Assembly (NCBI RefSeq): GCF_001886715.1
Contig: NZ_CP018082.1
Location: 3,782,001-3,846,000 of the forward strand
DNA from: Nocardia mangyaensis
GTDB lineage: Bacteria; Actinomycetota; Actinomycetes; Mycobacteriales; Mycobacteriaceae
Direction: 5' to 3'
Length of the DNA stretch: 64,000 bases
Positions 26,276-56,579 of this stretch are shown here, piece after piece (within the stretch, counting starts at the first letter, position 1; each line of letters opens with the position of its first letter). Position numbers and translations under genes: made by a program. The notes below the pieces were generated by a model, which worked only from the letters and a program-made list of their open reading frames with translations, ran no database searches and was not told the DNA's origin.

Positions 26276-26294
26276 GTAGTGTAGCCTTACCTAA
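26276..26294. promoter_or_regulatory. Iron box (IdeR/DmdR-type) before the ABC exporter operon
   Basis: GTAGTGTAGCCTTACCTAA matches the mycobacterial consensus TWAGGTWAGSCTWACCTWA at 16 of 19 positions by eye. It lies 160-180 bp before the GTG start at 26453, in a 307-bp gene-free gap (26146-26452) in which I see no other feature. It marks the left end of the iron-regulated locus. Confidence 0.72.
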
Positions 26295-26452
26295 GCGACG
26301 GAGGGGTCTTCGGCGGGACCCACCGAGCGGAAGCAGAAAATCCATGTCACCACGCATCGAATGGCTGCCGCGCACCAAGTGACAGGCCGGCGACTCGTTC
26401 GGCCCAGACAGAACTCGGTGCCGATGCGATGGCCTCCACAGAAGGAGCACTT

Positions 26453-27403
26453 GTGGCAGCGATCCAGGTCACCGATCTCGTCAAGTCATACGGTGAGGTG
26501 GTGGCCCTCGACGGTATCTCGTTCGAGGTCGCCCGTGGCGAGATACTCGGCCTACTCGGCCCCAACGGCAGCGGTAAGACCACAACGGTCACCTTGCTGT
26601 CCACCCTGCAACGACCCACCTCCGGTAGCGCCCGGATCTGCGGTCACGATGTAGTCGCCGAGGCTGCCCGGGTACGCGAAACCATCTCGCTCACTGGGCA
26701 ATACGCCGCTCTGGATGAGGGTCTCACCACCGTGGAGAACCTGTCCGTGTTCGGCCGGCTCACCGGTTTACGCGGCCCGGCTCTGCGCACCCGCATCGAC
26801 GACCTCGTCGAGGAGTTCGACCTCACCACGGTGCGCAACCGGCGGGTCGGTGCCCTTTCCGGCGGAATGCAACGCCGAGTCGATATCGCCAGCGCTCTGG
26901 TCACCCGGCCCGAGGTGCTGTTCCTCGACGAACCGACCACCGGCTTGGATCCACGCAGCCGCGCCTCGGTCTGGGACACCGTCGCCGGGCTGCGGCAAGC
27001 AGGGATCACAGTCCTGCTGACCACCCAGTATCTGGAGGAAGCCGACCGGCTCGCCGATCGCATCGTGATGCTCGACCGCGGATCGGTGGTTGCCGCCGGC
27101 ACACCGGGGCAGTTGAAGAAGCAGGTCGGCGCGGCTGTATGCGAAGTGACCCTCGTGGAGCGAACCGATACGGCCCGGGTCATCAGCCTGCTCGACGGCC
27201 TGGACCTCGTCGAGTCACCAGCGGAGGGCGCGGCCGCGGGAGCCCAGGCGCATCCGCGACTGGTGGTCCGGGCTCCGCACGCCATGGCGACGGTCGCCGA
27301 CGTCATCGACCGATTGCACACCGCGGGAATCGACGTGGTCGACATCGGCCTGCGCCAGCCCTCGCTGGACGAGGTGTTCCTCCAACTGACAGAGACGAGC
27401 TGA
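26453..27403 (+). CDS. DrrA-family ABC transporter ATPase of the siderophore locus
   Basis: A 316-residue ATPase with Walker A GPNGSGKTT, signature LSGGMQRRVDIA, Walker B VLFLDEPTTGLDP and the DrrA-type C-terminus RQPSLDEVFLQLTETS. The start is GTG at 26453, with GAAGGAG at 26441-26447; an in-frame ATG at 26429 has no ribosome binding site. It belongs to the same superfamily as the cassette ATPases but is clearly more distant from both than they are from each other. It is coupled to two different permeases downstream and preceded by an iron box, so siderophore export is the most likely role (inference). Confidence 0.86.
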   Translation: MAAIQVTDLVKSYGEVVALDGISFEVARGEILGLLGPNGSGKTTTVTLLSTLQRPTSGSARICGHDVVAEAARVRETISLTGQYAALDEGLTTVENLSVFGRLTGLRGPALRTRIDDLVEEFDLTTVRNRRVGALSGGMQRRVDIASALVTRPEVLFLDEPTTGLDPRSRASVWDTVAGLRQAGITVLLTTQYLEEADRLADRIVMLDRGSVVAAGTPGQLKKQVGAAVCEVTLVERTDTARVISLLDGLDLVESPAEGAAAGAQAHPRLVVRAPHAMATVADVIDRLHTAGIDVVDIGLRQPSLDEVFLQLTETS

Positions 27404-28221
27404 TGACGACCGCTGTCGGACACGCACCCACCTCGAGCTCCCCCAGCACCACCATGCCCCGGAGTTCGGTCGGGCTCGTACCGGCCACCGCCACACTCGC
27501 CCGCCAGAAGATCTCGGCCGCGATCCGCTCGGGTGATGTCGTCTTCGCAGTCTTCGGGCCGGTCGTGTTCTTCCTCTGCTTCTATACGCCGCTACACCGC
27601 CAGTTCGAACTCGGCGGGGGCAACTACGCGCAATTCCTCACCCCGATAATCCTTTTGCAGGCCGGGCTCTTCACCGCCATCACCGCCACCGAGTCCGCCG
27701 GACAGGACGCACGAGCCGGTGTGCACGAGCGAATGATGTCGCTGCCGATCCCGCGCGTCGCGCCGTTCTTCGGACGCATGGCCTGGGTGGTGGTGCGGAT
27801 GGGCCTGACGCTCGGCGGCGGGCTCGCCATCGGCTGCGCCCTGGGCTTCCGGCTCCAGGGCACCATCGTGGAATCGCTTGTCTTCGTCGCTCTCGTCATC
27901 GTTTTCGGACTGGCACTGAGCATGGTCACCGATGCGATCGGCACCGTGGCCCGCAATTCGGTGTCGATCGCGAGCGTTCTCATGATTCCGCAGCTGATCC
28001 TGGTGATGGCGTCCACCGGCCTGGTCACCGCACCGGCATTCCCCGCCTGGATACAGCCGTTCGTTCGCAATCAGCCGATGTCGGTCTACGCCGACGCTCT
28101 CCGGGCGCTCGCCGCGGGCACCGACCTCGAATTCACCGCGGTGGTGCTCTGGTCGGTGGCACTGCTCGCCATCGGCGGTGCGGCAATGGTGATCGCGGGC
28201 CGAGCGCAGGTGAAACGATGA
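27403..28221 (+). CDS. ABC-2 type permease 1 of the iron-regulated exporter
   Basis: A 272-residue membrane protein with a Ser/Thr/Pro-rich cytoplasmic N-terminus (about 35 residues) and six predicted hydrophobic segments. The loop DARAGVHERMMSLPIPRVAPFFGR between helices 2 and 3 is the ABC-2 coupling region. The ATG overlaps the ATPase stop by one base (TGATG), and its stop overlaps permease 2 as ATGA. Together with the following gene it should form a heterodimeric channel (DrrB/DrrC arrangement), unlike the single-permease cassettes elsewhere in the window. Confidence 0.84.
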   Translation: MTTAVGHAPTSSSPSTTMPRSSVGLVPATATLARQKISAAIRSGDVVFAVFGPVVFFLCFYTPLHRQFELGGGNYAQFLTPIILLQAGLFTAITATESAGQDARAGVHERMMSLPIPRVAPFFGRMAWVVVRMGLTLGGGLAIGCALGFRLQGTIVESLVFVALVIVFGLALSMVTDAIGTVARNSVSIASVLMIPQLILVMASTGLVTAPAFPAWIQPFVRNQPMSVYADALRALAAGTDLEFTAVVLWSVALLAIGGAAMVIAGRAQVKR

Positions 28222-29030
28222 CGGAGACGATGACAGACGCAGCAAGCTGGCCGGCCCGGCAGGCCGTGCCGGTATTGCGTCAATCGGTCGTCCAGGCGAG
28301 TGCGCTGCTGCGTTCCTGGTCGCGTGATCCGGGAATCGTCGTGCAGTCGATAGTTTTTCCTGTCTTCCTGCTGCTGATGTTCCAATTGGTCCTGGGCAAG
28401 ACCGTGACCTCGATGGGCGGCGGCGACAGCATCTTCGGCAACACCGGTCTGGTGGCGCTGGTGGGTGCGCTGTTCGGCACTCTGGCCACGGCGATCAGCC
28501 TCATCCACGAGCGCGACACCGGACTGCTGGCTCGGATGTGGACGCTGCCGGTGCCGCGCCCCGGTTTCCTCGTCGGCCGGCTGCTCGCCGAGGCGGTGCG
28601 CACCGGGATAGCCACCGTTGTCCTGTTCGCCGTCGCGATCCCGCTCGGATTCCGGTTCGAGCAGGGTATCGCCGCCGGAATCGGCGCGGTGCTCGTGGCG
28701 ATGGTGTTCGCGGTCGGTATCGCGGTGCCGGTGATCGCCATGGCAACGGTGGCCTCCGGCCGGCAGGCCGTGCAGCAGCTCAATGGATTCTTTCTCCTGC
28801 TGCTGTTCTTCAACGGAGGTTTCGCACCCGTCAGCGAGTATCCGGGCTGGCTCCAGCCGGTGGTCCGGTATCAGCCGATGACACCGGCGATCGATACTGT
28901 TCGTGGATTGACCGAGGGCGGTCCGGTGGCGGAGCCACTGGCCATCACGGTGCTCTGGACGGTCGGACTGATCATCGTGTTCGGTCCGGTGGCGTTCCGC
29001 GGCTACCGGCATGCCGCAGAACGCCGCTGA
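28218..29030 (+). CDS. ABC-2 type permease 2 of the iron-regulated exporter
   Basis: A 270-residue permease with six hydrophobic segments and the coupling loop HERDTGLLARMWTLPVPRPGFLVGR (about residues 97-121). The region GGFAPVSEYPGWLQPVVRYQPMTPAID corresponds to the outer loop found in DrrB/DrrC-like proteins. It is translationally coupled to permease 1 and is the last gene of this operon. A stem-loop terminator follows directly, before the convergent ABC operon. Confidence 0.84.
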   Translation: MTETMTDAASWPARQAVPVLRQSVVQASALLRSWSRDPGIVVQSIVFPVFLLLMFQLVLGKTVTSMGGGDSIFGNTGLVALVGALFGTLATAISLIHERDTGLLARMWTLPVPRPGFLVGRLLAEAVRTGIATVVLFAVAIPLGFRFEQGIAAGIGAVLVAMVFAVGIAVPVIAMATVASGRQAVQQLNGFFLLLLFFNGGFAPVSEYPGWLQPVVRYQPMTPAIDTVRGLTEGGPVAEPLAITVLWTVGLIIVFGPVAFRGYRHAAERR

Positions 29031-29066: not shown

Positions 29067-29855
29067 TCAGTCGCTTTTCATATCACCCGTGGACAGGCGC
29101 AGGGTTCCGAGCACGAAGACCACCAGGCACGGCACCGCGAAGTACAGCAGTGATCCGTTCGGGCCGCCGAAGTAGCTGTCGGTGGTACTGAGCTGGCCGA
29201 CGCCCAGTTCGCCGTTCTTGAACGGCGACAACCGTTGCAGCATGCGCCCCAGGTCGTTGTTGACGAACGTGACGAAAACCTCGATACCGAACTTCCACAG
29301 CAGCACGATCATCACCACCAGGCCCGGCTTCGGCAGCAGTGCGGCCAGGCCGAGGCCGAGCGCACAGACCAGCACGGTGAAGATCGGCACGCAGATCAGC
29401 AGGCGGATACCGGCGCCGGAGAAGGCATCGACCTCGCCCCATACATCCGGAAACAGGTGTGGAAAGCCGCCCAGCAGAAGAAATGTGGTCGCACCGGCGA
29501 CCGCACCGGAGAGCAGGCCGAACACGATCAACTTGGCGACGGGCAGCAGCCAGCGGCGCGCCTGGATGCCGGCGACGGTCTCGACGGTCTTGTCCTTGAA
29601 CTCATTACTGAGCGAGGACACCGCGCCGGACATGAGGATGAAGGTCGAGAAGATCAGCACCCAGTAGGTGGCATTGCTAGTCTCCATTCCGCCGTAACCG
29701 TTGATGGTTTCGGCCTGCGATGCTTTGGCGATTCCGAAGTTGAGCGCCACCGGGATCAGGATCGCGAGCGGGACGACCGCGTACCACAGGGAGCTACGCC
29801 ACGACAGTTTCACGAGTTCGCTGCGGACTGCACGGACCAGATAGCGGGCGAGCAT
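29067..29855 (-). CDS. ABC-2 type permease of a BcrAB-like transporter
   Basis: A 262-residue permease: an N-terminal amphipathic segment (MLARYLVRAVRSELVKLSWR), then about six hydrophobic segments, with the first coupling loop SSLSNEFKDKTVETVAGIQARRW. This layout fits BcrB-type subunits of bacitracin/lantibiotic-class ABC exporters. ATG at 29855 overlaps the ATPase stop by one base (TGATG). It is part of an operon beginning at 31184 under the iron box at 31255, so its expression is probably iron-repressed. Substrate unknown; siderophore export or cell-envelope maintenance under iron limitation are options. Confidence 0.78.
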   Translation of the reverse strand: MLARYLVRAVRSELVKLSWRSSLWYAVVPLAILIPVALNFGIAKASQAETINGYGGMETSNATYWVLIFSTFILMSGAVSSLSNEFKDKTVETVAGIQARRWLLPVAKLIVFGLLSGAVAGATTFLLLGGFPHLFPDVWGEVDAFSGAGIRLLICVPIFTVLVCALGLGLAALLPKPGLVVMIVLLWKFGIEVFVTFVNNDLGRMLQRLSPFKNGELGVGQLSTTDSYFGGPNGSLLYFAVPCLVVFVLGTLRLSTGDMKSD

Positions 29856-30592
29856 CAGCCTTCACCCCCGCCCGTGGTGTATTCGACGCTGCTCGCGGTG
29901 ATCTCGAGGTAAGCGGACTCCAGCGGTCGTGTGCCCGAGCCTTGGGCGACCAACTCGTCCTTGCTCGTATCGGACAGCACTTTTCCCTGCCCCATGATGA
30001 CGATCCGATCTCCGGTGATCTCCACCTCGGTCAGGTTGTGCGAAGCCACCAGCAGGCATGTCCCGTCGGCGGCGAGCCCGGTGACGAGTTCGCGCAGCCA
30101 CAGCGTGCCCTCGACATCGAGCCCGTTGGCCGGTTCGTCCAGCACCAGCGTGCGCGGATCGCCCAGCAGCGCCGCGGCGATACCGAGCCGCTGCAGCATG
30201 CCGTAGGAGAACTTGCCGACCGGACGCTTCGCGACCTTTTCCAGCCCGACCCGTTCCAGCACCCGGCCGACGGCGGCTGCCGGCACGCCGCCCAGGCGGG
30301 CCTGCCACAGCAGATGCTGTGTCGCGGTGTGCTGGGGATTGCGGGTGAAAGCGCCAAGGCCGAACCCGATTTCGCGGAGGGTGTCGCGGAAGTCCAGCAG
30401 GCCTTTACCGTTGATCGTGAGATTGCCCTCGGTGGGCCGGGTCAGGCCGGCGATCATCCGCAGAACGGTGGTTTTGCCGGCGCCGTTGGGCCCGAGCAGA
30501 TAGGTGATCGAGCCCGGTTCGGCCTCGAAGCTGACATCGTCTACGGCGACGATGTCGCCGTAGCGTTTGGACAGGCCGCGAATGCTGATCAT
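29855..30592 (-). CDS. ABC transporter ATPase of a BcrAB-like transporter
   Basis: A 245-residue ATPase with Walker A GPNGAGKTT (about residues 35-43), Walker B TLVLDEPANGLDVEG, and the switch ASHNLTEVE. The signature reads FSYGMLQRLGIA rather than LSGGQ; this Tyr-Gly-Met variant is common in the BcrA group. The start ATG at 30592 is where homology begins; an open frame extends 64 codons upstream, without similarity. It pairs with the overlapping permease. A 109-bp gap separates it from the upstream secreted protein gene, probably within the same transcript. Confidence 0.82.
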   Translation of the reverse strand: MISIRGLSKRYGDIVAVDDVSFEAEPGSITYLLGPNGAGKTTVLRMIAGLTRPTEGNLTINGKGLLDFRDTLREIGFGLGAFTRNPQHTATQHLLWQARLGGVPAAAVGRVLERVGLEKVAKRPVGKFSYGMLQRLGIAAALLGDPRTLVLDEPANGLDVEGTLWLRELVTGLAADGTCLLVASHNLTEVEITGDRIVIMGQGKVLSDTSKDELVAQGSGTRPLESAYLEITASSVEYTTGGGEG

Positions 30593-30701
30593 CGATGGAT
30601 TCCTGAACGACTGAGTGGCTGGTGGGTGGGCACATACGCAGAACGACTCCCCGTGCGGCCGTGGCGTTGCCGGGGAGTCGTTCCGGAGATCTCTGCGGCT
30701 G

Positions 30702-31184
30702 TCAGTACCCGAAGTCCGGGTTACCCGCGCACTGCATTTCGGCGCAGGTCGCTTTCCAGTCGTACTTCCACAGACCGCCTTCACGGATGAAGTGGTAGGT
30801 GGTGGAAGTGGCAGGGAAGCCCGCCATCACGCCCTCGACCCGCACCGACATCGTGTTGCCGGAGATGTTGACACCGCCGACGGCACGGCCCTGGATCGAG
30901 AAGAAGTCCATGGTCTGACTGCTCGCCATGACCCGTTCGAGCGCACCGCGCGCCTGCGGGCCGTTGTAGCTGACCTCGAGCTTGGGGCCGACGCCGATGT
31001 TCGGGTTCCAGAAGGCAGCGAACTGCCGCTCGAGCTGGCCGAGGTTCGGCACTTCGTCGCGAACGTAGAGGTCGCCGACCTTGCCGTCGCGAATCGACAC
31101 ATCGGCGGCGGCCGGCTGGGCCAAGCCCAGGCCGAGCAGAGCGGCGAAGACGACGGCGGAAACAATCCTGATGAGCCTCGGCAT
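30702..31184 (-). CDS. Secreted Mtb12-like small protein, iron-box controlled
   Basis: A 160-residue exported protein. The signal peptide MPRLIRIVSAVVFAALLGLG ends in QPAAAD with a likely cleavage after AAA. The mature domain has LERQFAAFWNPNIG, a run of beta strands, and FIREGGLWKYDW near the end, the pattern of the low-molecular-weight antigen Mtb12/NTF2-like domain of mycobacteria and relatives. Two cysteines near the C-terminus (TCAEMQCAG) may form a disulfide. The family assignment is by pattern recollection, moderately sure. It is the first gene after the iron box at 31255, so it should be induced under iron limitation; a periplasmic or surface accessory role in siderophore traffic is speculation. 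Confidence 0.66.
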   Translation of the reverse strand: MPRLIRIVSAVVFAALLGLGLAQPAAADVSIRDGKVGDLYVRDEVPNLGQLERQFAAFWNPNIGVGPKLEVSYNGPQARGALERVMASSQTMDFFSIQGRAVGGVNISGNTMSVRVEGVMAGFPATSTTYHFIREGGLWKYDWKATCAEMQCAGNPDFGY

Positions 31185-31254
31185 GGGCGATCCCTTCGAG
31201 CCAAATGACGAACAAGCCCGGATCTCCGGGCGGACCAACAATATTCCGCAAACG

Positions 31255-31273
31255 TTAGGCAAGTCAAACCTAA
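31255..31273. promoter_or_regulatory. Iron box before the Mtb12-like gene and BcrAB-like operon
   Basis: TTAGGCAAGTCAAACCTAA matches the IdeR/DmdR consensus at about 16 of 19 positions, with both outer halves TTAGG and CCTAA perfect. It sits 70 bp before the start at 31184, overlapping the promoter region in the short gap after the FAAL gene end. Confidence 0.75.
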
Positions 31274-31288: not shown

Positions 31289-32926
31289 TCAGACCGGAAT
31301 AAGGCTCGCGGCCGACGAACGACGCAGCTTGCCCGACGGGGTCTTGGGCAGTGCGCCCTTGTGCACGATCGTGACGACTGCCGGGGCGATGCCGATATCG
31401 TCGTAGACCGCCCGCGCCACTTCCCTCCGGATCCGCTCACTCTGCTCGGCGTCCTCGGCGAGATCGGATTCGGCGATCACGGCGATGCCCTCGCGCGCCA
31501 TCCCGGGCAGGCGCACGGCCAATGCCGCCACGCTGCCGGCGCGCACACCGTCGACTCCGGCCGCCGCACGCTCCACCGTGGTGGGCGCGATATTGCGGCC
31601 GGAGACAATGATGATGTCCTTCTGCCGTCCGGTCACCACGGTCTCACCGGTAGCGGTGACGTACCCCAGGTCGCCGGTGGCCAGCCAGCCGTCGGCATCC
31701 ACGGCCGACACGTAACCATCGGGCAGGAGATACCGCCGGGTCACCGCGTCTCCGCGGACCAGGATCTCGCCGATCCGGTCGGCCGGAAGCGCCGTCCCGG
31801 CTCCATCGACCACCTTCAATTCGATCCCGGTGACAGGTGTTCCCAACCGCATCAGCGTTCGCGATGCGCCGACCGAGTCACGCTCGACCACGCCCTCGCC
31901 TTCGGACCGTCCGGCATCGATGACATCCACCGAATAGCGTGCGCCGGCATCGGTGAACGATGTGGCAAGGGTCGTCTCGGCCATACCGTAGGCCGGCATC
32001 AGAGCCTCCGGACGGAACCCGAACCGTGCTGCCGCATCCAGGAATTCCAGCAGGGTCGCTTCGTCGACGATCTCCGCGCCGTTGATCGCGACCCGTAGGG
32101 ACGACAGGTCATAGGCGCCCTCGGGCGCCCGGCGCAGCCGCCGGGCGATCAGCGAATAGGCGAAATTGGGCGCCGCCGTGTAGTTTCCATCGAATCGGCC
32201 GATCAGCTCCGCCCAGCACAGTGGATTCTTCAGGAACGCGAGCGGCGGAACGACCACCGTTGTCGCTTGCGCGAACAGCGGGGCGAGGAGCAAACCGATC
32301 ATGCCCATATCGTGGTAGAGCGGCAACCAGCTGACGCCCACCCAGTCGGCGGTGAAGCCTGTCCGGTCCACCATGGCAGCCTGATTCTGATGCAGATTCC
32401 GGTAGGAGATCGCCACCGCCTTCGGCACACCGGTGGTGCCGGAGGTCAGCTGCAGGATGGCGGTATCGTCCTCGGCGGTCGGCACAGGCTCGATCGTGTC
32501 GGTCCGCTCGGCCAGCTCATCGATGACAACACTCGGCGCACCGAGATCGAGATCTCGCACGGCCTCGGTGAACGGCTCACTCAGCACCACCACCCGGGCG
32601 CCCAGCATCTCGATCACCGAACGCGTATCCGTCAGCCAGGTCTCGAGATTCATGCGCGGGGTGGGCTGGTGCAGCATGGTGAACACCGCGCCACGCATCC
32701 AGATCGCCTGGACGGCCACGGTGACCTCGTCCGCCGGGCCCGCGAGGATCGCGACGGAGTCACCGGGTTGCACCCCCGCCTCGGCCAATCCGGCGGCGAC
32801 CCGGCGGGCCGTGGCCCGCAACTGATCCCAGGACCGGAAGGTCAGCTCCGATGCGTCGGGTCCGCTCCACAAGCCGTTGACCTCGGAAACTGGTTCGTCG
32901 AAAAGCAACTGGGTGATTCTGCTCAT
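31289..32926 (-). CDS. mbtM: Fatty acyl-AMP ligase (FAAL), MbtM/FadD33-like
   Basis: A 545-residue adenylating enzyme. Motifs are LQLTSGTTGVPKAVAISYRN (P-loop, about residues 156-175), SWLPLYHDMGMIG (about 197-209), typical of fatty acyl-AMP ligases, PAYGMAETT, and the C-terminal GRQKDIIIVSGRNI and PKTPSGKLRR. In mycobactin assembly MbtM activates a long-chain fatty acid and loads it on the carrier protein MbtL; an MbtL-like ACP and an MbtN-like dehydrogenase are encoded in the same operon here. Start chosen at ATG 32926; a GTG at 32971 overlaps the preceding stop and is an alternative. It is the last gene of the ACP-ACAD-acyltransferase-FAAL operon. Confidence 0.85.
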   Translation of the reverse strand: MSRITQLLFDEPVSEVNGLWSGPDASELTFRSWDQLRATARRVAAGLAEAGVQPGDSVAILAGPADEVTVAVQAIWMRGAVFTMLHQPTPRMNLETWLTDTRSVIEMLGARVVVLSEPFTEAVRDLDLGAPSVVIDELAERTDTIEPVPTAEDDTAILQLTSGTTGVPKAVAISYRNLHQNQAAMVDRTGFTADWVGVSWLPLYHDMGMIGLLLAPLFAQATTVVVPPLAFLKNPLCWAELIGRFDGNYTAAPNFAYSLIARRLRRAPEGAYDLSSLRVAINGAEIVDEATLLEFLDAAARFGFRPEALMPAYGMAETTLATSFTDAGARYSVDVIDAGRSEGEGVVERDSVGASRTLMRLGTPVTGIELKVVDGAGTALPADRIGEILVRGDAVTRRYLLPDGYVSAVDADGWLATGDLGYVTATGETVVTGRQKDIIIVSGRNIAPTTVERAAAGVDGVRAGSVAALAVRLPGMAREGIAVIAESDLAEDAEQSERIRREVARAVYDDIGIAPAVVTIVHKGALPKTPSGKLRRSSAASLIPV

Positions 32927-32970
32927 TGGAATTCCATTTCTGCCTGCCGGGTACTTCCGGCCGTGGCGCA

Positions 32971-34227
32971 CTACGCCTCGCCGAGTACCTGGTCGAAGTA
33001 CTCGACGAAGGTGTCGGCGTACCCCGGCGGCAGGGCCGCGGGGTCCATCACGATGCCGAACGATGTCCGCTTGCCCAGAATCAGCGACGTCACCGAGAAC
33101 GAGTAACCGGCCAGCGGCGACAGCGCGCTCAGTTCGGTGATCGGTTTCCCGAGTACGGAACGTAGCCTGGAGAATCCGGGGTTGATGCCGATATGGATAT
33201 CGGGACTCATGTGCTTCATGGCCGCGCTACCGATCACGCGCCGCAGCGCCCACGGCAGCCCGGGTTCGGTCGCCGGCGCCGCGGAAGTCAGTTCGGGGCG
33301 GCGCTTCTCGATGCCGGCCAGTTCCGATTTGCATCGCTGAATCTGCCGATCGAGATCGGGAACGTTGCCGGCCAGATTGAACGGCGTGACGATCACGGCG
33401 TTGCCGGTGTGCCGGAAATCCGGGTCGTTGGTCACCGGCAGGGTCACCCGCACGACTTCGGCGGGCACCGCACCGGGCGGGGCAAGGCTGATCGCGCGGC
33501 CGACGGCGGCGAGCAGGAACTCGTGCACCGAGGCGTCGTGCGCCTTGGCGGCGCGGCGCAGATCTCGGGTGGACGCACTGTACAAGGCGTATTCGCGCCG
33601 GCCCGATGTGGTGAGTTTCGGCCAGCTACGGCCGGTCTTTCCGGCCGCGTGCTGTTCGGCGAAGGCAGCCTTCGCTTCCTTCAGGACCCCCGGCTCGATG
33701 TCGGGCGTGCGGAACCGGGGGCTGGTCGCGAATCGCTCGAACTCGGCGAGTTCCTCGGCCGTACCGTCGGCCAGCAGTGCGGCGAACGCGGCGCCGGCGA
33801 TGCCGTCGGACACCGCGTGATGCACTCGTAGCAGGAAGTATTGGGAGCCGTCACCGGCCGGGGTGAACAGCGTGATATGCCACATCGGTTGCGGCCTGGG
33901 CAGCGGTGTTTCGAGCAGCGCGGTGACCTGCGTGCTCAACTCCGCCGCGTCAGTGTATTCGGCGGCGGCCAGATGGCTGTCCACATCGACCGTCTCGGCC
34001 ACCACTTCGCGCGGTCGGCGCCAGCGCCCGTGCTCGATGCCCAGCCGGAACAGTTCGAACAGTCCACTGCGCTCACGCACCCGTTCGCGCACATCGCCCA
34101 TTTTCAGGTGAGTGCCGTCGGCGGACAGTTCGAGCAGCATCGACCAGTGCATCGGACTGCTCGCGGTGTCCAGGTGCAGGTAGGTGTGATCGGAAGGGGT
34201 CAGCTTCATCACCGAGGTGTCTGTCAT
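32971..34227 (-). CDS. WS/DGAT-type acyltransferase of the lipid-tail operon
   Basis: A 418-residue wax-synthase/DGAT-family protein starting [20 protein letters not shown], with the family's N-terminal pattern. The complete HHxxxDG motif is [11 protein letters not shown] (His136, His137, Asp141, Gly142). C-terminal signatures include [16 protein letters not shown] and [19 protein letters not shown]. In mycobactin clusters the lipid is transferred to the hydroxylamine by the GNAT enzyme MbtK; no free-standing MbtK is present here, and this protein lies in the ACP/ACAD/FAAL operon, so it is a candidate for moving the acyl group from the ACP onto the N-hydroxy-diamine. That role is inference. 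The start overlaps the ACAD stop (ATGA). Confidence 0.78.
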
Positions 34228-35387
34228 TGCGTGTCCACTTTCGCGAGTAGAGCCTGGTAGCCGTCCGTGTCGGGCTTCATGGCCGCAGCGACCAACTCCC
34301 ACAGCACCTCGTCGGTGCCGCCGCCGACGCGCGCCAGTTTCATGTCCCGGAACCAGCGATTCAGTGGAAGCCCGGTGTCGAGGTAGCCGATTCCGCCCCA
34401 GATGTGCAGGCACTCCGAGGCCACTTCTTCGCCGAGATTGGCCGCGGTGACTTTGAGCGAGGCGGCGGTACGCAGATTGACACGCCCCTCGGCTGCGACG
34501 CCGGCCAAGGCGTGGCGCAGGGTATCGACCCGCGATTGCAGGTCGGCGACGCGTAACCGCAGCGCCTGATGGTCGTAGAGCCGCTGGCCGAACTGGACGC
34601 GGTCGTACATCCGGGCCAGCGTCACGCCGAGCATGCGCTCGCAGGACGCGGCGATCTGGCCGGCCACCGAGTAGCGTTCGTGTGCCAGCCCCCAGCTGAT
34701 CACCGCCAGACCGGTGCCGGGACGCGCGATGAGCGCGTCCTCCGGGATCCAGGTGTCGATGCTCACCGCGGCGGTATCCAGCGGACCGGCGCCGAGCTTG
34801 CGGTAGGGCTTGCCGACCTGCACCTGTGATACCGGCACCACGGCCAGCGCGACATTGCCCGATTCGGTCGCCGGTTCGTCGCCGAGGCTGCGCCCGACGA
34901 CGACGATGTAGTCGGCGATCGGCGAGAGCGAAACGAACTTCTTGTGCCCGACAACCCGATAGCCGCCGCTTTCCGGCTCGATCCGGGTCCGGGCGTTCTG
35001 CAGGTCCGAGCCGCCGGATTCCTCCGACGCCCCGATGCACAGCACTTTCTCGACCGCGATCGCCTCCTCGGCGAGTTGCCGCAGGAAATCGGTGCGCCCG
35101 AATCGGCGCAGCACGGCGATCGCCGAATCGTGCAGGCTGACCCCGACGCCGATGGCCGCCGAACCGAGCGCGCCCAATTCGCGGGCCAGCGCGAAATGCT
35201 CACCGAGGTCGGTGACCTTGCGGTCGTTCCATTTCCGGGCGAACACACCCTGGGCCCCGAGATGTTCGAGCAGGACCCGTGGGAACGTGTTGTCCTGTTC
35301 GGCCTGTTCGGTCCACCGGACCACCCGGTCGTCGAAGGCCCGGGCGAGCAGATCGGAATACGAGCCGGCGGGCGCGGCGACTGTCAT
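34224..35387 (-). CDS. mbtN: Acyl-CoA/acyl-ACP dehydrogenase, MbtN/FadE14-like
   Basis: A 387-residue flavin dehydrogenase with the ACAD layout: helical N-terminal domain, the central beta domain with [13 protein letters not shown] (about residues 117-129) and [19 protein letters not shown], and a C-terminal helical domain with the FAD/dimer segment [24 protein letters not shown]. MbtN desaturates the ACP-bound fatty acid of mycobactin; the flanking ACP (overlap ATGA) and FAAL make the same role probable, so the siderophore lipid should be alpha,beta-unsaturated or otherwise unsaturated. An ordinary beta-oxidation enzyme is less likely because of the operon position. Confidence 0.83.
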
Positions 35388-38648: not shown

Positions 38649-38740
38649 GGGTAGCCCATCGACTCGAATATGGATAGCGACTGCGTTCGTCTTCCGACCG
38701 TCCCCACCGCGGCGCGCGAAGCAGTCTTCGACTGCGTGAT

Positions 38741-48667: not shown

Positions 48668-50422
48668 TCAGAACGAACCCACGGGCGCGGGGTCTGCACT
48701 GATCCGCCACCCGGCGACCTCGTGTTGCTGCGCCCAGAATTCGGCGAAACGACCATTGGCAGCGCGCAATTCGTCGACCGTGCCGTCCTCCACGATCCGG
48801 CCCTCATCCAGGAACAGCACCCGGTCCGCGCCCACGATGGTGGCGAGCCGATGCGTCACCACCACGCGCGTGCGCTGCTGCGGATCGCCGGTGATGGCGG
48901 CAACCACCGCGGCCTCGTTCTCCGCGTCGAGCGCACTGGTGCCCTCGTCCACGAGCAACACCGAAGACGGCTTCAGCAGTGCCCGCGCAATCGACACCCG
49001 CTGACGTTCACCACCCGACAACGCGGTCCCCGCTTCTCCGACCAGGGTGTCGAGCCCGTCCGGCAGCCGCTGCGCGAACTCGTCGACCCGTGCCAGGCGC
49101 AGAGCCTGTGCGAACTGGTCCGGATCGGCGTCCGGGGCGCCCGCCAGGACGTTCTCCCGGATGGTGCCGGCGAACAGATACGGTTGCTGGAACACCATGC
49201 TGGCCACTGCCGAACGGTCCGCGGTATCGAGAGCACCGCGGTCCACACCGGCAATGGTGACGCTGCCGGACGTAGGCGCTTCCAAGCCCGAGATCAGTGC
49301 GAGCAGCGTGCTCTTGCCGGACCCCGACGGTCCGACCACCGCCGTGACCCGGCCTGCCTCGAACTCGACATCGACACCATCGACCACCGGCTCGGCGCCA
49401 TACGCGAAAGACACCGTGCGCAACGCCACCGAGGCGGGCTCCTCGGCATCACACACCGCCGCGCTGTTCCGCTTCGGTTCGGGCGCCTCGACGACAGTGC
49501 CGATGTCGCGCAGCGCACCACGACTGGTTTCCAGCGCCGTCGCGAGATCACCGAACGCGGCGAACGGCTCGAGGAACCGCACCACCACCACGATCAGCGC
49601 AACGGCCTCGGGAACCCCGATGGTGCCCGCCACGGCGAGCCATGCGACGGTTCCCGCCATCGCCAGGAGCGCGATCTGGCTCGCCAGACCGAACAGCACC
49701 TGCCCCGGGACATTCAACAACAGCAGCCGAGTCGTCGCGCCGTGCTGGGCGGACAGCGCCGCACCGGTCTCATTGCGGGCCGGCTCAGCGCGCCGCGCCG
49801 CGCGCAATGCGGCCTGAGTACGCGCGAACTCGAGAATGCGCTCGGTGAGCACGCTGTTGGCTTCCCTGGACACCACGGTCGCACGCCGGGTGAGCAGGTT
49901 GGTCAGCCACAGTGAGCCCAGCATCAACGGCAAGGCGAGCAGCGCGACCAGGCCCAACTGCCATGCGACCGGCACCAGCGCGACGGCGATCGCGACCGGC
50001 AGCGCGACGGCTTGGATCAGCGGCGTCATCAGGTACCCCACCAGACCCACGAGGTCCGGGCCGGTGGTGGCGATCGCGCGCCGCGTGATGGCCGAGTTGT
50101 CCTCCGTGAACCAGCGCAGTGGAATTCGCGCCACCTGCGCCGATACCGACCGCTGGGCGTTGTCGAGCAGGTGGAAACCCAGATCGAAACCGATCCGCGA
50201 GGTGATCGTGTCCACAGCCCAGCCGGCGGCGACGGCGAGGGTCAATACCCCTACCCACGGCCACGCGTCGGCCGGGGTGTCCCCGAACAGTTCCGTGACC
50301 AGTGGCACCACCAGGACCACGGCGATCGCTCGCAGGACCACCGAAACGAGCAGGAGGCCGAGATAGCCGGTGGTCCGGCGGCGCTGCTCGGCCGGCAACA
50401 GACTCAGCATGGTGCGGATCAT
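48668..50422 (-). CDS. irtB: IrtB-like ABC transporter (membrane + ATPase), ferri-siderophore import
   Basis: A 584-residue type IV ABC half-transporter. Six membrane helices (about residues 15-300) are followed by an ATPase with Walker [10 protein letters not shown] (about 371-379), signature [12 protein letters not shown], Walker [15 protein letters not shown], and the H-loop THRLAT. In Walker B the usual Asp-Glu-Ala reads Asp-Glu-Gly, a mild variant. IrtB pairs with IrtA to import mycobactin/carboxymycobactin iron in Mycobacterium tuberculosis. ATG at 50422 overlaps the irtA stop as ATGA. The pair is transcribed from the iron-box region at 53.2-53.3 kb. Confidence 0.88.
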
Positions 50423-53106
50423 CGGGCGATCTCCTTCACATCGGCGCCGGCATTCCACAGCTGCCGATAACGGCCCTCGGCGGCGAGGAGTTCGGTGTGG
50501 GTCCCGGATTCGGCGATCCGGCCGCCGTCCAGGACCACGATCCGATCGGCCGCGGTGATCGTGCGCAGCCGGTGCGCGATCACCAGTACCGTCCGCCCGA
50601 TGGTCAGCCGGTTGAGCGCCCGCTGAACCAGATACTCGGCCTCCGGGTCGGCGTACGCCGTGGCCTCGTCCAGCACCAGCACCGGGGTGTCGGCCAGCAG
50701 CGCCCGAGCGATGGTGAGCCGCTGCCGTTCACCGCCCGACATTGTGGTTCCGGCCCCCAGCATCGTGTCGTATCCCTGCGGCAACCGGAGGATCCTGTCG
50801 TGGATCTGTGCGTCGCGCGCGGCACGCTCGATCGCGTCATCGGAGGCATCCGGTACCGCCAGGGCGATATTGTCCCGCACCGTTCCGCCTACCAGCTGGG
50901 TGTCCTGGAAAACGAAGCCGACCTGCGCGTACAGCTCATCCGGTGACAGTGTCGCGATATCGCGGCCCCCCACCCGGATCACCCCGGAACCGACGTCGTG
51001 GAAGCGGGCCAGCAGCGCGGCCAGAGTCGACTTTCCCGCGCCGGAGGAACCGACCAGCGCGGTGACCGTGCCGGGTTCCAGCGTGAGCGATATGTTCTCG
51101 ATCACCGGCACTCCCGGCCGATAGCCGAAGCTCACCTCATCGAACACCACCCGGCCCGCCTCATCCGCCGGATTCGGCTGCCCGGGTCGCACCTCGAGTT
51201 CGTCGGTGTCCAACACGACCTGGATCTTCTGCGCGGCTTCCCGGCCCTCCCGCAACCCCATCATTCCGTAGCCGATGCCGAGCAGGCGTGAGCCGAATGT
51301 GGTGCCCAAGAACAGGAACGGCAGCAGATCCACCGGCTCCACACTGCCTGCCACGACCAGCGCGGTTCCCGCCACCAGGATCAGCCACAGGAAGGTGACC
51401 GGCCGGGTGATCAGGTCCATCGCCGACTTCTTGCCGACGAACGGCCGTTGCCAGCCGTCCAAGAAGGCGATGTACTGATCCAGGCTGCGCCGGAACGGCG
51501 AGGCAGCCGAACCACCGAACACCCGGATCACCGGCTGGCCGTCCATGTATGAGGTCGCCTCGCGCTTCATCCGTTCGCCCCAGCGCTGCGCCTGCATGGT
51601 CTTCGGCCCCGAGGTCGCCATCATCGTCATCATCGTGAATATGTAGGCCAGAATCGGTATCAGCAGCACCAGACCCATTCGCCAGTCCACGAAGAACAGG
51701 TAGACCAGCACCGCAAGGGGCGCCACCACCGCGGCCACCGCATCGACCACCGCGTGCGTGATCAGATAGTGCAGCGACAGCGTGTCACCGTTTATCAGCT
51801 TGTCCACCTGACCCGAACTGCGCGCGGTGAACCAGCCCAGCGGCAGTCTCGCCAGCTTGCCCAGCAACCGGCCGCGTAGCTCACGACCGAACCGCGCGTC
51901 GACCGAGTGCAGCCACAGTTGCAACGCCGATTCCAGCAAGGTGCCCAGCCCGAACAGCCCGAGCGCCCACAGGCCGAGCCGCCACAGCGTGTCGCTTCCA
52001 CTACCCGCGAGCAGTTCCCGCGCCAGTTCCACCAGCAGCACATAGGGCGCCAGTTGGATCAGCGTGACGAAGAATTGCAGGATGCCCGCGACGTACAGCT
52101 TCGGTTTGACGTCGGCGAACAGGCGGCTGCCCGCCTGGGAGCGCCATCTTCCGGCCCGAACGGATCGTGCACGCTGCGCCGAACCGTCCACGGCAACGTC
52201 CGCCGCCGTCACCGCCTCGGGTGTCGATCCGACCTCGACAGCCGCCGGCGCCGCCTCTTCGGGCGCCGGCGACGCGGCATCGCCCGAAGCACTGGCGGGG
52301 GCCGTACCCTGCGCTGCCGCGGCCGGGAGACCGGAGTCCGCGGCAGCACGTTCTTCGGCACCGCGCTCTTTGCCCATCGCCCGGCCGTGCGCCCAGTACG
52401 CCTGCGCGTACACGTCGGTCTTGGGAAAACCGAACTCCTTCACCCGCGCCCGGAGGTGCTTGAGGGCCTTCGATTCCGGCCCCATCCAGGCGTACCAATT
52501 CGACCAGTCCCGCACTTCCAGGGCCGAGGCAAGGGATTCCTCCGAGGTCCGCGGGACCCAGTGCACCCGCGCCAGCGGGTGGTGAACCAGCGCCATCAGC
52601 AGATCATCGTCGTGATGCTGTTCCAGGTAGACCTCGACGGCCACCTGATGCGGCACCGCCGCCAGGATCGTATTGATCGCCGAAACAGAGGCCGAGTCAC
52701 CGATCAGCAGATAGCCGGCCGGTGGATCCTCCGACACCGAGAACCCTCGCGACCCGAACGAGGTCACCTCGATCGTCTCCCCGCCGGTGACGTTCAACGC
52801 CCATGCCGAGGCCGGCCCCGCGGGCTCGTGCAGCACGAAATCCACCGCGAAACGGCCGACGGTATCCGGATCGACCTCCGCGATCGTGTACCCGCGCTGG
52901 AACTCCGCGTCCGAGCCCTTGTCGTCGGGGAACCACATCCGCAGCCACGCCGTCGGTTCGATATCGATATCGGCCAACAATGTCGGCGCACTCAACCAGA
53001 CCCGGCGCATTCGCGGTGTCAATTGCTCTGCACCAGAGACGGTGGCGGTGTGGTACTGAACGCCGAAGGCGTTCAGTACCACACCTTGAAATCCTCTACG
53101 CGCCAC
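50419..53106 (-). CDS. irtA: IrtA-like ABC transporter with N-terminal siderophore-interacting (FAD reductase) domain
   Basis: An 895-residue fusion. Residues about 1-265 are the SIP flavoreductase domain: [36 protein letters not shown] with the FAD-binding R-x-Y-T pattern, and [15 protein letters not shown]. An Ala/Glu-rich linker (about 265-330) leads to six membrane helices and an ATPase with Walker [10 protein letters not shown], signature MSGGERQR and Walker [15 protein letters not shown]. In mycobacteria the cytoplasmic SIP domain reduces the imported ferric siderophore. The start is GTG at 53106: GGAGGA lies 9 bp upstream and the homology with mycobacterial IrtA (MARGLQGVM) begins there. 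A strong 39-bp hairpin lies in codons 8-20. Confidence 0.9.
53047..53085. repeat. Perfect 18-bp inverted repeat inside the 5' end of irtA
   Basis: The arms are GGTGTGGTACTGAACGCC and GGCGTTCAGTACCACACC with a GAA spacer. They cover nucleotides 22-60 of the irtA coding sequence, codons for [14 protein letters not shown] perfect 18-bp stem with a 3-nt loop in the early coding region is exceptional for ordinary protein coding and would form a very stable mRNA hairpin. It may control translation or transcript elongation of irtAB, or be a DNA site for a dimeric regulator. Confidence 0.7.
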
Positions 53107-53228
53107 TGCGGTGTGTCCTCCGTACCAGACTCGATGACCGTCGAGGTCACCTGCCGAACAACACGACGCGCGAGTCGTACCGGCCATCCGCCGCCTTCCC
53201 GTGTCCCGGCCGGGACACGTTCAGCAAC

Positions 53229-53308: not shown

Positions 53309-53327
53309 TTAGGCTATGCTAGCCTAA
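53309..53327. promoter_or_regulatory. Iron box before the salicylate synthase gene
   Basis: TTAGGCTATGCTAGCCTAA matches the consensus at about 16 of 19 positions and is a near-perfect palindrome (TTAGGCTA-TGC-TAGCCTAA). It contains TATGCT, which could be the -10 element of the rightward promoter. It ends 34 bp before the TTG start at 53362. Confidence 0.75.
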
Positions 53328-53361
53328 TTTCTCGCAGTCAGGCATGATCTTGGAGGACCCG

Positions 53362-54711
53362 TTGTCGATCACGGACGAGCGCTCGCACGCGGGCTATGTG
53401 ACCGATCCGGTAGCGGCGGTGGCAGGGCTGGCGGGAGCCGACCTGTTCGGCGAGTATGTGGTGTACGAACGGCCGGGAGAATGGGTGTTCGCGGCCGACC
53501 CGATCGGCACTGTCGAACTGGGCGTCGAGGAGCTGCGCGTCGAATGGGACGGACGCACCAGCACCCACCGGTGGACCGGCAGACCCGCAAGCGCCCTCGA
53601 CCAGGCACTCCGCACACTACCGTTGGATGGACGGAACGCCTACGGATGGATCGGATTCGAATTCTGCGCCTGGGCACTGGATGCCACCGCCCATGTGGCA
53701 GCGCCCACGGCACTGGCGCACCTGATGATTCCGCGGATCGAGGTGCGGATCGCGATGTCGGGTATCCGGATCTCCGGTGCGACACCCGCCGAGGCCCGGG
53801 CGATCCACGATCTGGTCACCGCCGCCCAGGACACTGCGCTGCCGCTACCGCATCCGACCGATGTCCGCAGCGATCGGACCGGCTACCGCGAACGAGTTGC
53901 CGAGGCGAGTGCGGAAATCCGCGACGGCCGGTACCGGAAGGTCATCCTGTCGCGGAAGGTCGAGCTGCCCTTCATGGTCGACGTACCGGCCACCTACCGG
54001 CTCGGCCGGGCACACAACACCCCCGCTCGATCCTTCCTGTTGCGACTGGGCGGGCTGGCGGCGGCGGGGTTCAGCCCGGAGTTGGTCGTTTCCGTCGACG
54101 ACGACCGAGTCATCACCACAAGACCGGTGGCAGGCACCCGGCGCTTCGGCCACAGCCCCGCGGCCGATCTCGCCGCGCGCACGGATCTGCTCGGCGACCC
54201 CAAGGAGATCGCCGAGCACGCGATGTCGGTGCACACCTCGTTCACCGAGGTCAGCGCGATCGCCGCGCCCGACACGCCGGCCATCGTCGATTTCATGACA
54301 GTGCGCGAGCGCGGCAGCGTCCAGCATCTCACCTCCACCGTCCGGGGCCTGCTCATCGCCGACCGAACCAGCTGGGATGCCCTGGAAGCCCTGTTCCCAG
54401 CCGTCACCGCCTCGGGCATCCCGAAACGCGAAGGCGTCGATGCCATCTTCCGGCTCGACCGCGATCCGCGTGGATTGTATTCCGGCGCGGTGGTCACTGT
54501 TTCACCCTCGGGCTCACTGGAGGCCACGCTGGTGCTGCGTGCGGTCTACCAGGACATCCACGGCGCGTGGCTACGCGCCGGGGCAGGAATCATCGAACAA
54601 TCCACACCCGAGCGCGAATTCGAGGAAACCTGCGAGAAGCTCGAAAGCATCGCACCCTACGTCGTAGCGGCATCACCGAGCGTCGGCACCGGACAACCAA
54701 CGCTCCGCTGA
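53362..54711 (+). CDS. mbtI: Salicylate synthase, MbtI-like (chorismate-utilising)
   Basis: A 449-residue TrpE/MbtI-fold enzyme converting chorismate via isochorismate to salicylate and pyruvate. Closely conserved blocks with MbtI include RYRKVILSRKVELPF, LGRAHNTPARSFLLRLGG, ITTRPVAGTR, DPKEIAEHAMSVH, DFMTVRERGSVQHL, FPAVTASGIPKREGVDAIF, LYSGAVV and RAGAGIIEQSTPEREFEETCEKL. I choose TTG at 53362 because GGAGG at 53352-53356 precedes it by 5 bp. An in-frame ATG at 53344 would add six residues, has no ribosome binding site and lies close to the iron box. It provides the aryl cap of the siderophore. Divergent from irtA. Confidence 0.9.
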   Translation: MSITDERSHAGYVTDPVAAVAGLAGADLFGEYVVYERPGEWVFAADPIGTVELGVEELRVEWDGRTSTHRWTGRPASALDQALRTLPLDGRNAYGWIGFEFCAWALDATAHVAAPTALAHLMIPRIEVRIAMSGIRISGATPAEARAIHDLVTAAQDTALPLPHPTDVRSDRTGYRERVAEASAEIRDGRYRKVILSRKVELPFMVDVPATYRLGRAHNTPARSFLLRLGGLAAAGFSPELVVSVDDDRVITTRPVAGTRRFGHSPAADLAARTDLLGDPKEIAEHAMSVHTSFTEVSAIAAPDTPAIVDFMTVRERGSVQHLTSTVRGLLIADRTSWDALEALFPAVTASGIPKREGVDAIFRLDRDPRGLYSGAVVTVSPSGSLEATLVLRAVYQDIHGAWLRAGAGIIEQSTPEREFEETCEKLESIAPYVVAASPSVGTGQPTLR

Positions 54712-54766
54712 GCCCGGCCACGGAATCCCGCACCGATCGGCTGCACCATCCCGAACACCCCGCTCG

Positions 54767-56380
54767 TCATCCCCCGTTCCGCAGGGCCTTCTTGTCGATC
54801 TTGCCGACTGCGGTCGTGGGTAGGCCGTCGGCACGACGCAGCACATCGGGAAGCTTGTACGTGGCAACGCCGCGGTCGGTCAGGAATGCCTTGATCTCGG
54901 ACAGCGTCGGCATCTCGCCGCCGACAACGAGGAAGGCGCAGACCTTCTCACCGAGCACGGCATCGGGCAGCCCGACCGCAGCGGCATGGCGGACCGCCGG
55001 ATGAGCGAGCAGGTGCTCCTCGAGTTCGTCGCAGGAGACGTTCTCACCGCCGCGGTTGATGACGTCCTTGATGCGGCCGGAAACAACGAGATGGCCACTG
55101 GGCAGGCGGCGCACCAGGTCGCCGCTGCGGTAATAGCCGTCCGGAGTGAAGGCGCGGGAATTGTGCTCGGGGGCCCGGTAGTAGCCACGAATCGTGTAGG
55201 GGCCTTTGGTGAGCAGCTCACCCTCCTCTCCGGGAGCGACGTCATCGCCGTCACCGTCGACGACACGGATCTCATCGGCCGGGGACAGCGGCCGACCCTG
55301 CGTGGCGTGGACCAACTCGGCCGGATCGTCGAGGCGGGTGAAGTTGAGCAACCCCTCGGCCATTCCGAACACCTGCTGCAGCCGCGCTTGGAGCGCAGGC
55401 TCGACCTCGCGAGCGTTCACCTCGGCCAAGCGGGCGCCGCCGACCTGCAGCAACCGCAGCGAGGACAGGTCGGCCTCCTCCCATTCGACTGCCGCACACC
55501 ACAATTGCGCAATCGGCGGGACGACCGCGGTAACGGTCACCCGGTTCTGCTCGATCGCGGCGAATGCGTTCTCGGGACTGGGCTCGGTGACGAAGGCTAC
55601 TGCGCCACCCACAGCGATCGTGCCGAGAATGCCGGGACAGGCAAGGGGGAAGTTGTGCGCGGCGGGCAGTGTCGCCAGGTACACGTCGCCCTCGGTCAGC
55701 TCGCACACCTGCGCGCTCGCGGTCGCGTTGTACACGTAATCGTCATGGGTGCGGGCGATCAGCTTCGGCAGCCCGGTGGTACCGCCGGAAACCAGCATGA
55801 GCGCGATATCGCCCGGATCGATCGCCGGTAGCGAGTCGCCCTCGCGCGGCACAGAATTCAGATCGACGAACGGGCCAGGGTCGCCGAGCACCAGCACGTG
55901 GCGCACCGACGGCACTGCCGCTTGCACCTCGGCAGCCAACTCTCGGTAATCGAAGTCACCCATCCGGTCCGCGACAATGTAGCCGACCGCTTCGGAGAGC
56001 CGCGCCAGATGCTCGATCTCGCTACGCCGATGCGCGGGCAACGTGAGCACCGGAATCACCCCGGCCCGCAACAGCCCGAACAACACCGGCACGAACTCGA
56101 CCACATTCGGCAACTGCACCACCACCCGGGCCCCTGGCTCGATTCCAAGCGCACGGAACCCGTGTGCCATCCGATCGGCCTCCGCGTCCAGCGTCGCGTA
56201 ACTACGCGCATCGGCGCCCAGCAGCGCGGTCCGATCAGGATGCCGCCGGGCGGTCTCACGCAGCAGCTCACCGAGCGAGCGCCCCTGCCAGTAGCCAGCG
56301 CTGCGGTACTCCGCGGCCGGCCCGGCGGGAAAGGGAACGTAGCCGTCGCGATGGGCGGTGGACGAGGTAAGGGGAAGCAC
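54767..56380 (-). CDS. mbtA: Salicyl-AMP ligase, MbtA/EntE-like
   Basis: A 537-residue aryl-acid adenylating enzyme. Motifs are ALMLVSGGTTGLPKLIARTHDDY (about residues 180-202), LPAAHNFPLACPG (the aryl-acid binding region), LLQVGGARL, QQVFGMAEGLLNFTRLDD and YRSGDLVRRLPSGHLVVSGR, all nearly as in MbtA. The Asn in AAHNFPL contacts the ortho-hydroxyl of salicylate in this family. It activates salicylate and loads it on the aryl carrier domain of the NRPS at 44393. The start is taken at GTG 56380 with GAGAGG 6 bp upstream; GTG at 56404 would add eight residues. Convergent with the salicylate synthase gene; controlled by the iron box at 56561. Confidence 0.9.
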   Translation of the reverse strand: MLPLTSSTAHRDGYVPFPAGPAAEYRSAGYWQGRSLGELLRETARRHPDRTALLGADARSYATLDAEADRMAHGFRALGIEPGARVVVQLPNVVEFVPVLFGLLRAGVIPVLTLPAHRRSEIEHLARLSEAVGYIVADRMGDFDYRELAAEVQAAVPSVRHVLVLGDPGPFVDLNSVPREGDSLPAIDPGDIALMLVSGGTTGLPKLIARTHDDYVYNATASAQVCELTEGDVYLATLPAAHNFPLACPGILGTIAVGGAVAFVTEPSPENAFAAIEQNRVTVTAVVPPIAQLWCAAVEWEEADLSSLRLLQVGGARLAEVNAREVEPALQARLQQVFGMAEGLLNFTRLDDPAELVHATQGRPLSPADEIRVVDGDGDDVAPGEEGELLTKGPYTIRGYYRAPEHNSRAFTPDGYYRSGDLVRRLPSGHLVVSGRIKDVINRGGENVSCDELEEHLLAHPAVRHAAAVGLPDAVLGEKVCAFLVVGGEMPTLSEIKAFLTDRGVATYKLPDVLRRADGLPTTAVGKIDKKALRNGG

Positions 56381-56560
56381 GATTCGCCTCTCAGGTACTG
56401 GCACGGGAGCCTCTGCAAGTCTTCATGATTCGATGATCAACCGGGCCTCGGAGGCCCACCGAGCCCGGTGACCCGTCCGGAACGAGCACGCACCGGCCTC
56501 GTGGGGATCGCCGACGCGCCGCTCACCACCGAACCCCGACTTTCCGCTTTCGAAATACGC

Positions 56561-56579
56561 TTAGGCTAAGCTAACATCT
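56561..56579. promoter_or_regulatory. Iron box before the salicyl-AMP ligase gene
   Basis: TTAGGCTAAGCTAACATCT matches about 14 of 19 consensus positions; the left half and centre are good, the right half is degraded. It lies 181 bp upstream of the start at 56380 and is the last iron box seen in the window. Confidence 0.6.

Follow-up and report, generated by a model that had tools for sequence, protein, structure and literature searches.

According to the available passages of PMC12161575, the nocardichelin family comprises the only hybrid siderophores identified that combine a non-ribosomal peptide synthetase (NRPS) with an NRPS-independent siderophore (NIS) synthetase, and a locus of Gordonia rubripertincta CWB2 is called consistent with nocardichelin there. 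Petrobactin too is counted as a hybrid of NRPS and NIS routes in the accessible part of PMC13036778, whose reference 49 (Fisk et al., ACS Chem Biol 2025) reports nocardichelin biosynthesis in its title. Three other papers name nocardichelins without a gene cluster, and a literature search returned no paper joining desferrioxamine, mycobactin, and penicillin acylase. The nocardichelin cluster is already assigned and the system already known, so that only the rearranged variants and the acylase hypothesis described below might be new. Here we describe a window of 64,000 nucleotides from Nocardia mangyaensis (NZ_CP018082.1, positions 3,782,001 to 3,846,000), contained in a single-contig genome of 7.31 Mb, and judge from its sequence, with a probability of about 0.95, that the siderophore core at approximately 31289-56404 is a nocardichelin (ncd-type) hybrid NRPS-NIS cluster. 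Gene content, motifs, orthology with NcdE and NcdF, a match of molecular formulas, and iron boxes support this assignment.

A sequence search found Protein Data Bank (PDB) entries titled "NcdF, a non-ribosomal independent siderophore synthetase" (9nom) and "NcdE" (9nij-9nim). The NIS synthetase of the window (42564-44396, minus strand; PF04183) is a DesD-type NcdF orthologue sharing 533 of 610 residues with 9nom, with DesD the next best match at 574 bits. Its neighbor, an NRPS at 44393-48397 on the minus strand, is the NcdE orthologue, to which 9nij-9nim align over residues 1136-1334 with 388.5-391.3 bits. Compared with 9nij, the other three NcdE sequences each show one changed residue in the alignments as printed, suggesting a study of active-site variants. 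The 9nom chain, from its second printed residue, is encoded exactly by Nocardia carnea NBRC 14403 (L012), as are 102 residues from the alpha chain of PDB entry 35sz, an acylase; neither exact match was found in the four other close relatives checked. Gene content, order, and orientation in the ncd cluster of N. carnea (G021/L012) agree with those of the window at 87-96% identity, G021 being collinear from MbtA to the ABC genes, and ordinary sequence divergence is the only difference found. In a scan of species genomes, N. carnea and Nocardia flavorosea also carried the NRPS genes closest to that of the window (87-89% identity; 95 stretches were confirmed, of which the best 80 were kept).

The core is transcribed mostly on the minus strand, with the salicylate synthase on the plus strand. 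Ten genes at 31289-48397 all point in the same direction, and overlaps of 4-8 bp occur at six junctions (NRPS/NIS, NIS/acylase, acylase/condensation protein, DesA/DesB, ACP/MbtN, and MbtN/DGAT), each of those between the consecutive NRPS, NIS, acylase, and condensation protein genes being 4 bp. Enzyme classes were called from Pfam and NCBIfam profile matches to 20 proteins scanned at 26-59 kb. Every class that an earlier note on this DNA had named within 26276-56579 has a profile match inside those coordinates; its inventory stands for the enzymes it listed but had left out a penicillin acylase, a stand-alone condensation protein, and a WS/DGAT-like protein. The same note had described the locus as iron-boxed, and two matches to a 19-mer consensus of the IdeR/DmdR type bear this out. 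One lies at 48448-48466 (plus strand) before the NRPS operon, 50 bp from the NRPS start, and the other at 53309-53327 (plus strand) in the divergent irtA/mbtI intergenic region; each has three mismatches, and none appeared in 100 dinucleotide shuffles.

The building blocks of nocardichelin we take to be salicyl-oxazoline, N-hydroxycadaverine, succinate, and an unsaturated acid. Joining salicyl-oxazoline acid, two N-hydroxycadaverines, succinate, and a C14:1, C16:1, or C18:1 acid with loss of four H2O gives C38H61N5O8, C40H65N5O8, and C42H69N5O8, with computed monoisotopic masses of 715.45, 743.48, and 771.52. These formulas from predicted blocks equal those that PMC6467163 prints for nocardichelin B, nocardichelin A, and a further congener, respectively, from a Gordonia strain. 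Together with NcdF and the GNAT domain of NcdE, which match window genes along their length, this agreement upholds the expectation of a mixed, nocardichelin-like product.

The hydroxamate genes resemble the desferrioxamine pathway, the window containing DesA-, DesB-, DesC-, and DesD-type proteins together with a DesG-type amidase. The DesA-type pyridoxal phosphate-dependent decarboxylase (37107-38648, minus strand; PF00282), whose best PDB match is 5o5c, a decarboxylase of desferrioxamine biosynthesis, would convert lysine to cadaverine. The DesB-type diamine N-hydroxylase (35801-37114, minus strand; PF13434) matches PDB entry 6xbb, titled "Monooxigenase", at E 7e-97 and then 5o8p, from desferrioxamine biosynthesis, at E 2e-90. 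The desferrioxamine cluster is self-contained and is not known to have an NRPS in its operon, whereas in the window this set stands together with NRPS and lipid genes, GNAT and NRPS form one protein, and the NRPS gene overlaps the NIS gene. Moreover, the DesD-type enzyme of the window would join two different monomers.

Likeness to mycobactin and nocobactin lies in the salicylate synthase, the aryl ligase, an NRPS with aryl carrier protein (ArCP), cyclization (Cy), adenylation (A), and peptidyl carrier protein (PCP) domains, the set of ligase, acyl carrier protein (ACP), and MbtN-like dehydrogenase, and an IrtAB-like transporter. The MbtI-type salicylate synthase (53344-54711, plus strand) passes the TIGR03494 cut-off of 325 with 500 bits. 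The MbtA-type aryl-AMP ligase (54767-56404, minus strand), which presumably activates salicylate, reaches 637 bits against TIGR02275, a (2,3-dihydroxybenzoyl)adenylate synthase model, under its cut-off of 724. Between the salicylate synthase and the NRPS are two ABC transporter genes on the minus strand that resemble IrtA and IrtB; the IrtA-like protein (50419-53187) has siderophore-interacting SIP and FAD_binding_9 domains besides its ABC domains, and the IrtB-like protein (48668-50458) was likewise assigned by Pfam. In contrast to mycobactin, for which the gene set includes the later NRPS and polyketide synthase genes MbtC-F, the window has DesA/DesB-type enzymes rather than an N-hydroxylysine route and a GNAT of DesC type, and no later mycobactin NRPS modules or polyketide synthase were present among the 20 proteins scanned.

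These two sets of likenesses could be read as two separate siderophores, the NIS half making desferrioxamines and the NRPS half a mycobactin-like compound from genes that are mere neighbors. The presence of all four DesA/B/C/D-type proteins would suit such a division, and G. rubripertincta CWB2, with a similar locus, makes acetyl-capped desferrioxamines B and A1 according to the available passages of PMC12161575, so that desferrioxamines are plausible as side products. Against it stand the 4-bp overlaps that chain the NRPS, NIS, acylase, and condensation protein genes, the joining of GNAT to NRPS in 10 of 10 Nocardia loci, and the single NRPS module among the 20 proteins scanned. A genome search found one NIS synthetase and a single close salicylate synthase, the next two matches to the latter (34% and 30%) probably being synthases of anthranilate or aminodeoxychorismate. 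We also asked which of six parts (GNAT, NIS, acylase, condensation protein, DesA, and DesB) occur near the NRPS at more than 40% identity in the 78 loci formed by the best 80 of the 95 stretches. All six are found in 16 loci (10 Nocardia and 6 Gordonia) and none of the six in the other 62, indicating that the gene set is not a chance neighborhood. Two independent pathways are, on this evidence, highly improbable, and the view of the earlier note that a single pathway is encoded is favored, at the level of sequence, by the overlapping NRPS and NIS genes, the co-occurrence of the parts, and the single NIS synthetase and close salicylate synthase.

Counted among the 62 loci with none of the parts is one on a 3.8-kb contig (L022) whose NRPS gene is cut before the GNAT. 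Labelled Nocardia farcinica, it carries an ncd-type NRPS fragment of 73% identity and may represent either contamination or a cluster particular to that strain.

In all six Gordonia loci, among them those of G. amicalis and G. alkanivorans, the order of NRPS, GNAT, NIS, acylase, condensation protein, DesA, and DesB is that of the window, and GNAT is a separate gene. A second difference from the window is that a ligase 33-34% identical to its fatty acyl ligase sits before the NRPS. The Gordonia comparison covers NRPS to DesB, and the CWB2 locus is known from its description in PMC12161575.

Pfam domains give the NRPS of the window the order ArCP-Cy-A-PCP-GNAT, with the Cy motif D....D..S at residue 231 and carrier serines present, and salicylate would be loaded on its ArCP-Cy module. 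Its A-domain residues, DLFNIGLIH, were read from motif-anchored alignment columns. They resemble DLYNIGLIH in a Mycobacterium asiaticum protein, which we take to be an MbtB, and differ from DLYNLSLVW in a Citrobacter protein, which we take to be a cysteine-type enzyme. The residues point to serine or threonine rather than cysteine as the probable substrate and do not separate serine from threonine.

The C-terminal domain of the NRPS (residues 1126-1334; 44396-45022, minus strand) is a DesC-type GNAT acyltransferase, scoring 394-397 bits with NcdE, 78 with the acyltransferase part of DfoC, 41 with BH2621, and 33 with MbtK. Being closer to DfoC than to MbtK, it most likely succinylates. A different function could be imagined from its position directly after the PCP, namely release of the salicyl-oxazolinyl group from the PCP onto the N-OH of N-hydroxycadaverine with no succinylation, and the distant relative MbtK does use a carrier-bound acyl group. 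However, GNAT has its own reading frame in all six Gordonia loci and is a separate open reading frame in two relatives from another genus of the family (G081 and G285), while G345 and G060 have it joined to an ArCP-Cy fragment that lacks A-PCP. The DesD-type step also needs a succinyl half, for which no other Acetyltransf_8 protein was present among the 20 scanned, and the similarity to DfoC over MbtK argues the same way. We consider a releasing GNAT very unlikely. Fusion in Nocardia but separation in Gordonia indicates that attachment to the PCP is probably dispensable, and the succinylating GNAT that we prefer would then probably work independently of the carrier.

Downstream of the NIS gene is a DesG-like N-terminal nucleophile hydrolase of the penicillin acylase family (40210-42567, minus strand; PF01804), which is 93.8% (alpha) and 90.8% (beta) identical over the aligned stretches to 35sz, "Penicillin acylase family protein". 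Its nucleophile, Ser215, is where the beta chain of 35sz begins. The next families are glutaryl acylase (256 bits, beta chain), D-succinylase (149 bits), and penicillin G acylases (at most 87 bits), and proximity to the first two fits the role proposed for DesG, de-succinylation of N-hydroxy-N-succinylcadaverine, in the available passages of PMC12161575. We therefore regard the acylase as probably a de-succinylase. A role like that of PvdQ, as a maturation enzyme removing the lipid tail to leave a non-lipidated final product, draws on membership of the same broad superfamily and a weak PvdQ match of 18 bits. It is unlikely, however, as the acylase has no signal peptide by eye and the 35sz alpha chain begins at residue 1, so that the protein looks cytoplasmic; its nearer relatives are the glutaryl acylase and D-succinylase, and the nocardichelin formulas contain the acyl chain. 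A de-succinylase would also let N-hydroxycadaverine stay free for fatty acylation, as we propose below. The adjacent stand-alone condensation protein (38741-40213, minus strand; PF00668) has the motif HHLAVDD and is a candidate for moving the salicyl-oxazolinyl group from the PCP to a free amine. A precedent for such release onto an amine is VibH in vibriobactin synthesis.

The remaining genes of the operon form a lipid set on the minus strand. A fatty acyl ligase, probably of the fatty acyl-AMP ligase (FAAL) type and proposed here to load a fatty acid on the ACP, occupies 31289-32971 (start more likely near 32926) and scores over the cut-off of NCBIfam PRK07768, with PRK09192 (fatty acyl-AMP ligase) and MbtM models ranking next under their cut-offs among its best 25 matches. 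The ACP (35384-35632, 82 aa) matches PRK05883 with 82.1 bits (cut-off 72). The MbtN-like acyl-ACP dehydrogenase (34224-35387), which would introduce 2,3-unsaturation into the acyl chain, reaches 598 bits against NF037942 (MbtN), below the equivalog cut-off of 700. Between ligase and dehydrogenase lies the WS/DGAT-like acyltransferase (32971-34227, its start at 34227 taken from reading frames), which matches TIGR02946 below cut-off (E 9e-30), carries HHxxxDG as HHAVSDG, and is a candidate for placing the fatty acyl group on the N-OH of N-hydroxycadaverine.

From these assignments we propose a route in which the substrates, the order of steps, the acyltransferase assignment, and the role of the acylase are all putative. 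MbtI would provide salicylate, with which MbtA would charge the ArCP of the NRPS, and the Cy-A-PCP module would add serine and cyclize it to a hydroxyphenyl-oxazoline. The DesA/DesB-type enzymes would convert lysine to N-hydroxycadaverine, and the DesC-type GNAT at the C terminus of the NRPS would succinylate one N-OH. The ligase, the ACP, and the MbtN-like dehydrogenase would yield an unsaturated acyl-ACP, whose acyl group would be passed onto a second N-OH by an acyltransferase, for which the WS/DGAT-like protein is the likeliest choice. The DesD-type synthetase would then couple the succinyl half with the amine of the acyl half, and the stand-alone condensation protein would most likely transfer the salicyl-oxazolinyl group from the PCP to the amine still free, in the manner of VibH. 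The acylase would probably strip succinate from surplus N-succinyl-N-hydroxycadaverine, so that a sufficient supply of N-hydroxycadaverine remains for fatty acylation.

Several points weigh against this scheme and the underlying assignment. The A-domain residues of a Pseudomonas thivervalensis protein, DLFNLGLIH, are nearly the same as those of the window, so that serine, suggested by the Mycobacterium-like residues, is only a likely substrate. The MbtN, MbtM, MbtA, and DesB-related equivalog models match under their cut-offs; with the MbtN, MbtM, 2,3-dihydroxybenzoyl-AMP ligase, and histamine N-monooxygenase models all below cut-off, the enzyme names are given by resemblance. For the ligase, the only model that it was seen to pass among its best 25 matches is one for a long-chain fatty-acid-CoA ligase. 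The division of steps among the condensation, WS/DGAT-like, and acylase proteins is tentative, and the simple scheme does not explain four rearranged relatives that have two stand-alone condensation proteins in addition to a WS/DGAT protein.

These relatives emerged from comparison of the whole core between the window and six other regions, two further genomes (G254 and G293) being represented by 4.5-kb loci only. The stand-alone condensation protein was found at E <= 1e-30 in 9 of 397 genomes of the order, the window genome included. G021 and G234 have the core layout of the window; in G234, the IrtAB homologues (38-48% identical) lie on the opposite side, and no close MbtI or MbtA was found in the stretch. 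In two other members of the genus (G345 and G060), a 716-aa ArCP-Cy protein without A-PCP is fused straight to GNAT and accompanied by a separate NRPS of 1162 or 1187 aa, 46% identical to that of the window, and by an additional stand-alone condensation protein. A free GNAT, an NRPS of 1175 or 1174 aa (45%), and again a second condensation protein are present in G081 and G285, where no close MbtN-like gene was found in the stretches (the best match, in G081, being 27%). All four separate NRPSs have the same A-domain residues as the window.

Between the ACP and the condensation protein, G345 (L089/L090) and G060 (L091/L092) also encode a protein of 160 and 164 aa, respectively, with no counterpart in the window; that of G345 looks secreted by eye. 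In five Nocardia loci (L014-L018), no salicylate synthase or aryl ligase more than 45% identical was found in the stretches around the NRPS, and the genes for these enzymes may lie past the stretch or in another part of the genome.

We suggest tentatively, and at somewhat less than even odds, that there are several related hybrid NRPS-NIS layouts, that the rearranged ones may make undescribed nocardichelin-like siderophores, and that in all of them the acylase edits the hydroxamate monomers, leaving one succinylated and one capped.

Possible exporters flank the lipid set. Three DrrA/B/C-like ABC transporter genes on the plus strand (26429-27403, approximately 27400-28221, and 28218-29030; Pfam/NCBIfam) likely belong to the cluster, homologues of DrrA and DrrB (85% and 75%) adjoining it in G234. 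An ABC-2 permease (29067-29855; Pfam, under cut-off) and an ATPase (29855 to approximately 30592-30784) follow on the minus strand at 29067-30784, and this pair also adjoins the cluster in G021, G345, and G060 and in loci L015, L016, and L018. The upstream parts of open reading frames 32971-35040 and 27139, and the open reading frame at 30702-31262, were judged over-extended or doubtful.

Outside the siderophore locus, positions 1358-22802 hold an apparently separate lipid or glycolipid locus, with a KAS III-like protein (7716-8765), an AMP ligase (9670-11331), and a 3beta-HSD-like reductase (11328-12371), a trio that to our eye resembles an OleA/C/D or beta-lactone set. It also includes condensation-type proteins (1358-2785 and 17880-19730), an MMPL protein (13603-15768), a glycosyltransferase (19690-21009), and ABC genes. 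Just beyond the other end, at 59513-62485, is a 990-aa A-PCP-reductase (AMP-binding, PP-binding, and NAD_binding_4), which is NRPS-like or carboxylic-acid-reductase-like.

Elsewhere in the genome are two further strong N-hydroxylase genes, one beside FecCD and ABC transporter genes, from which we infer that one or more additional siderophores are probably produced by the strain. The latter gene (L118, C1:5455000-5474999), with a FecCD permease, two ABC transporters, and NRPS genes nearby at 5.435-5.452 Mb, probably marks another hydroxamate siderophore. The other (L119, C1:4489500-4509400) lies near genes for an acyl-CoA dehydrogenase, a haem-oxygenase-like protein, and a fusion of cupin and methionyl-tRNA-synthetase-like parts reminiscent of N-N bond (hydrazine) synthetases.

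The window adds a complete, collinear copy of the ncd cluster in a single-contig genome and leaves current understanding unchanged. Hybrid NRPS-NIS siderophores are few, and the comparison makes the carrier requirement of the GNAT, the substrate of the acylase, and the bonds formed by the condensation proteins testable. New lipidated iron chelators might be sought in the rearranged relatives.

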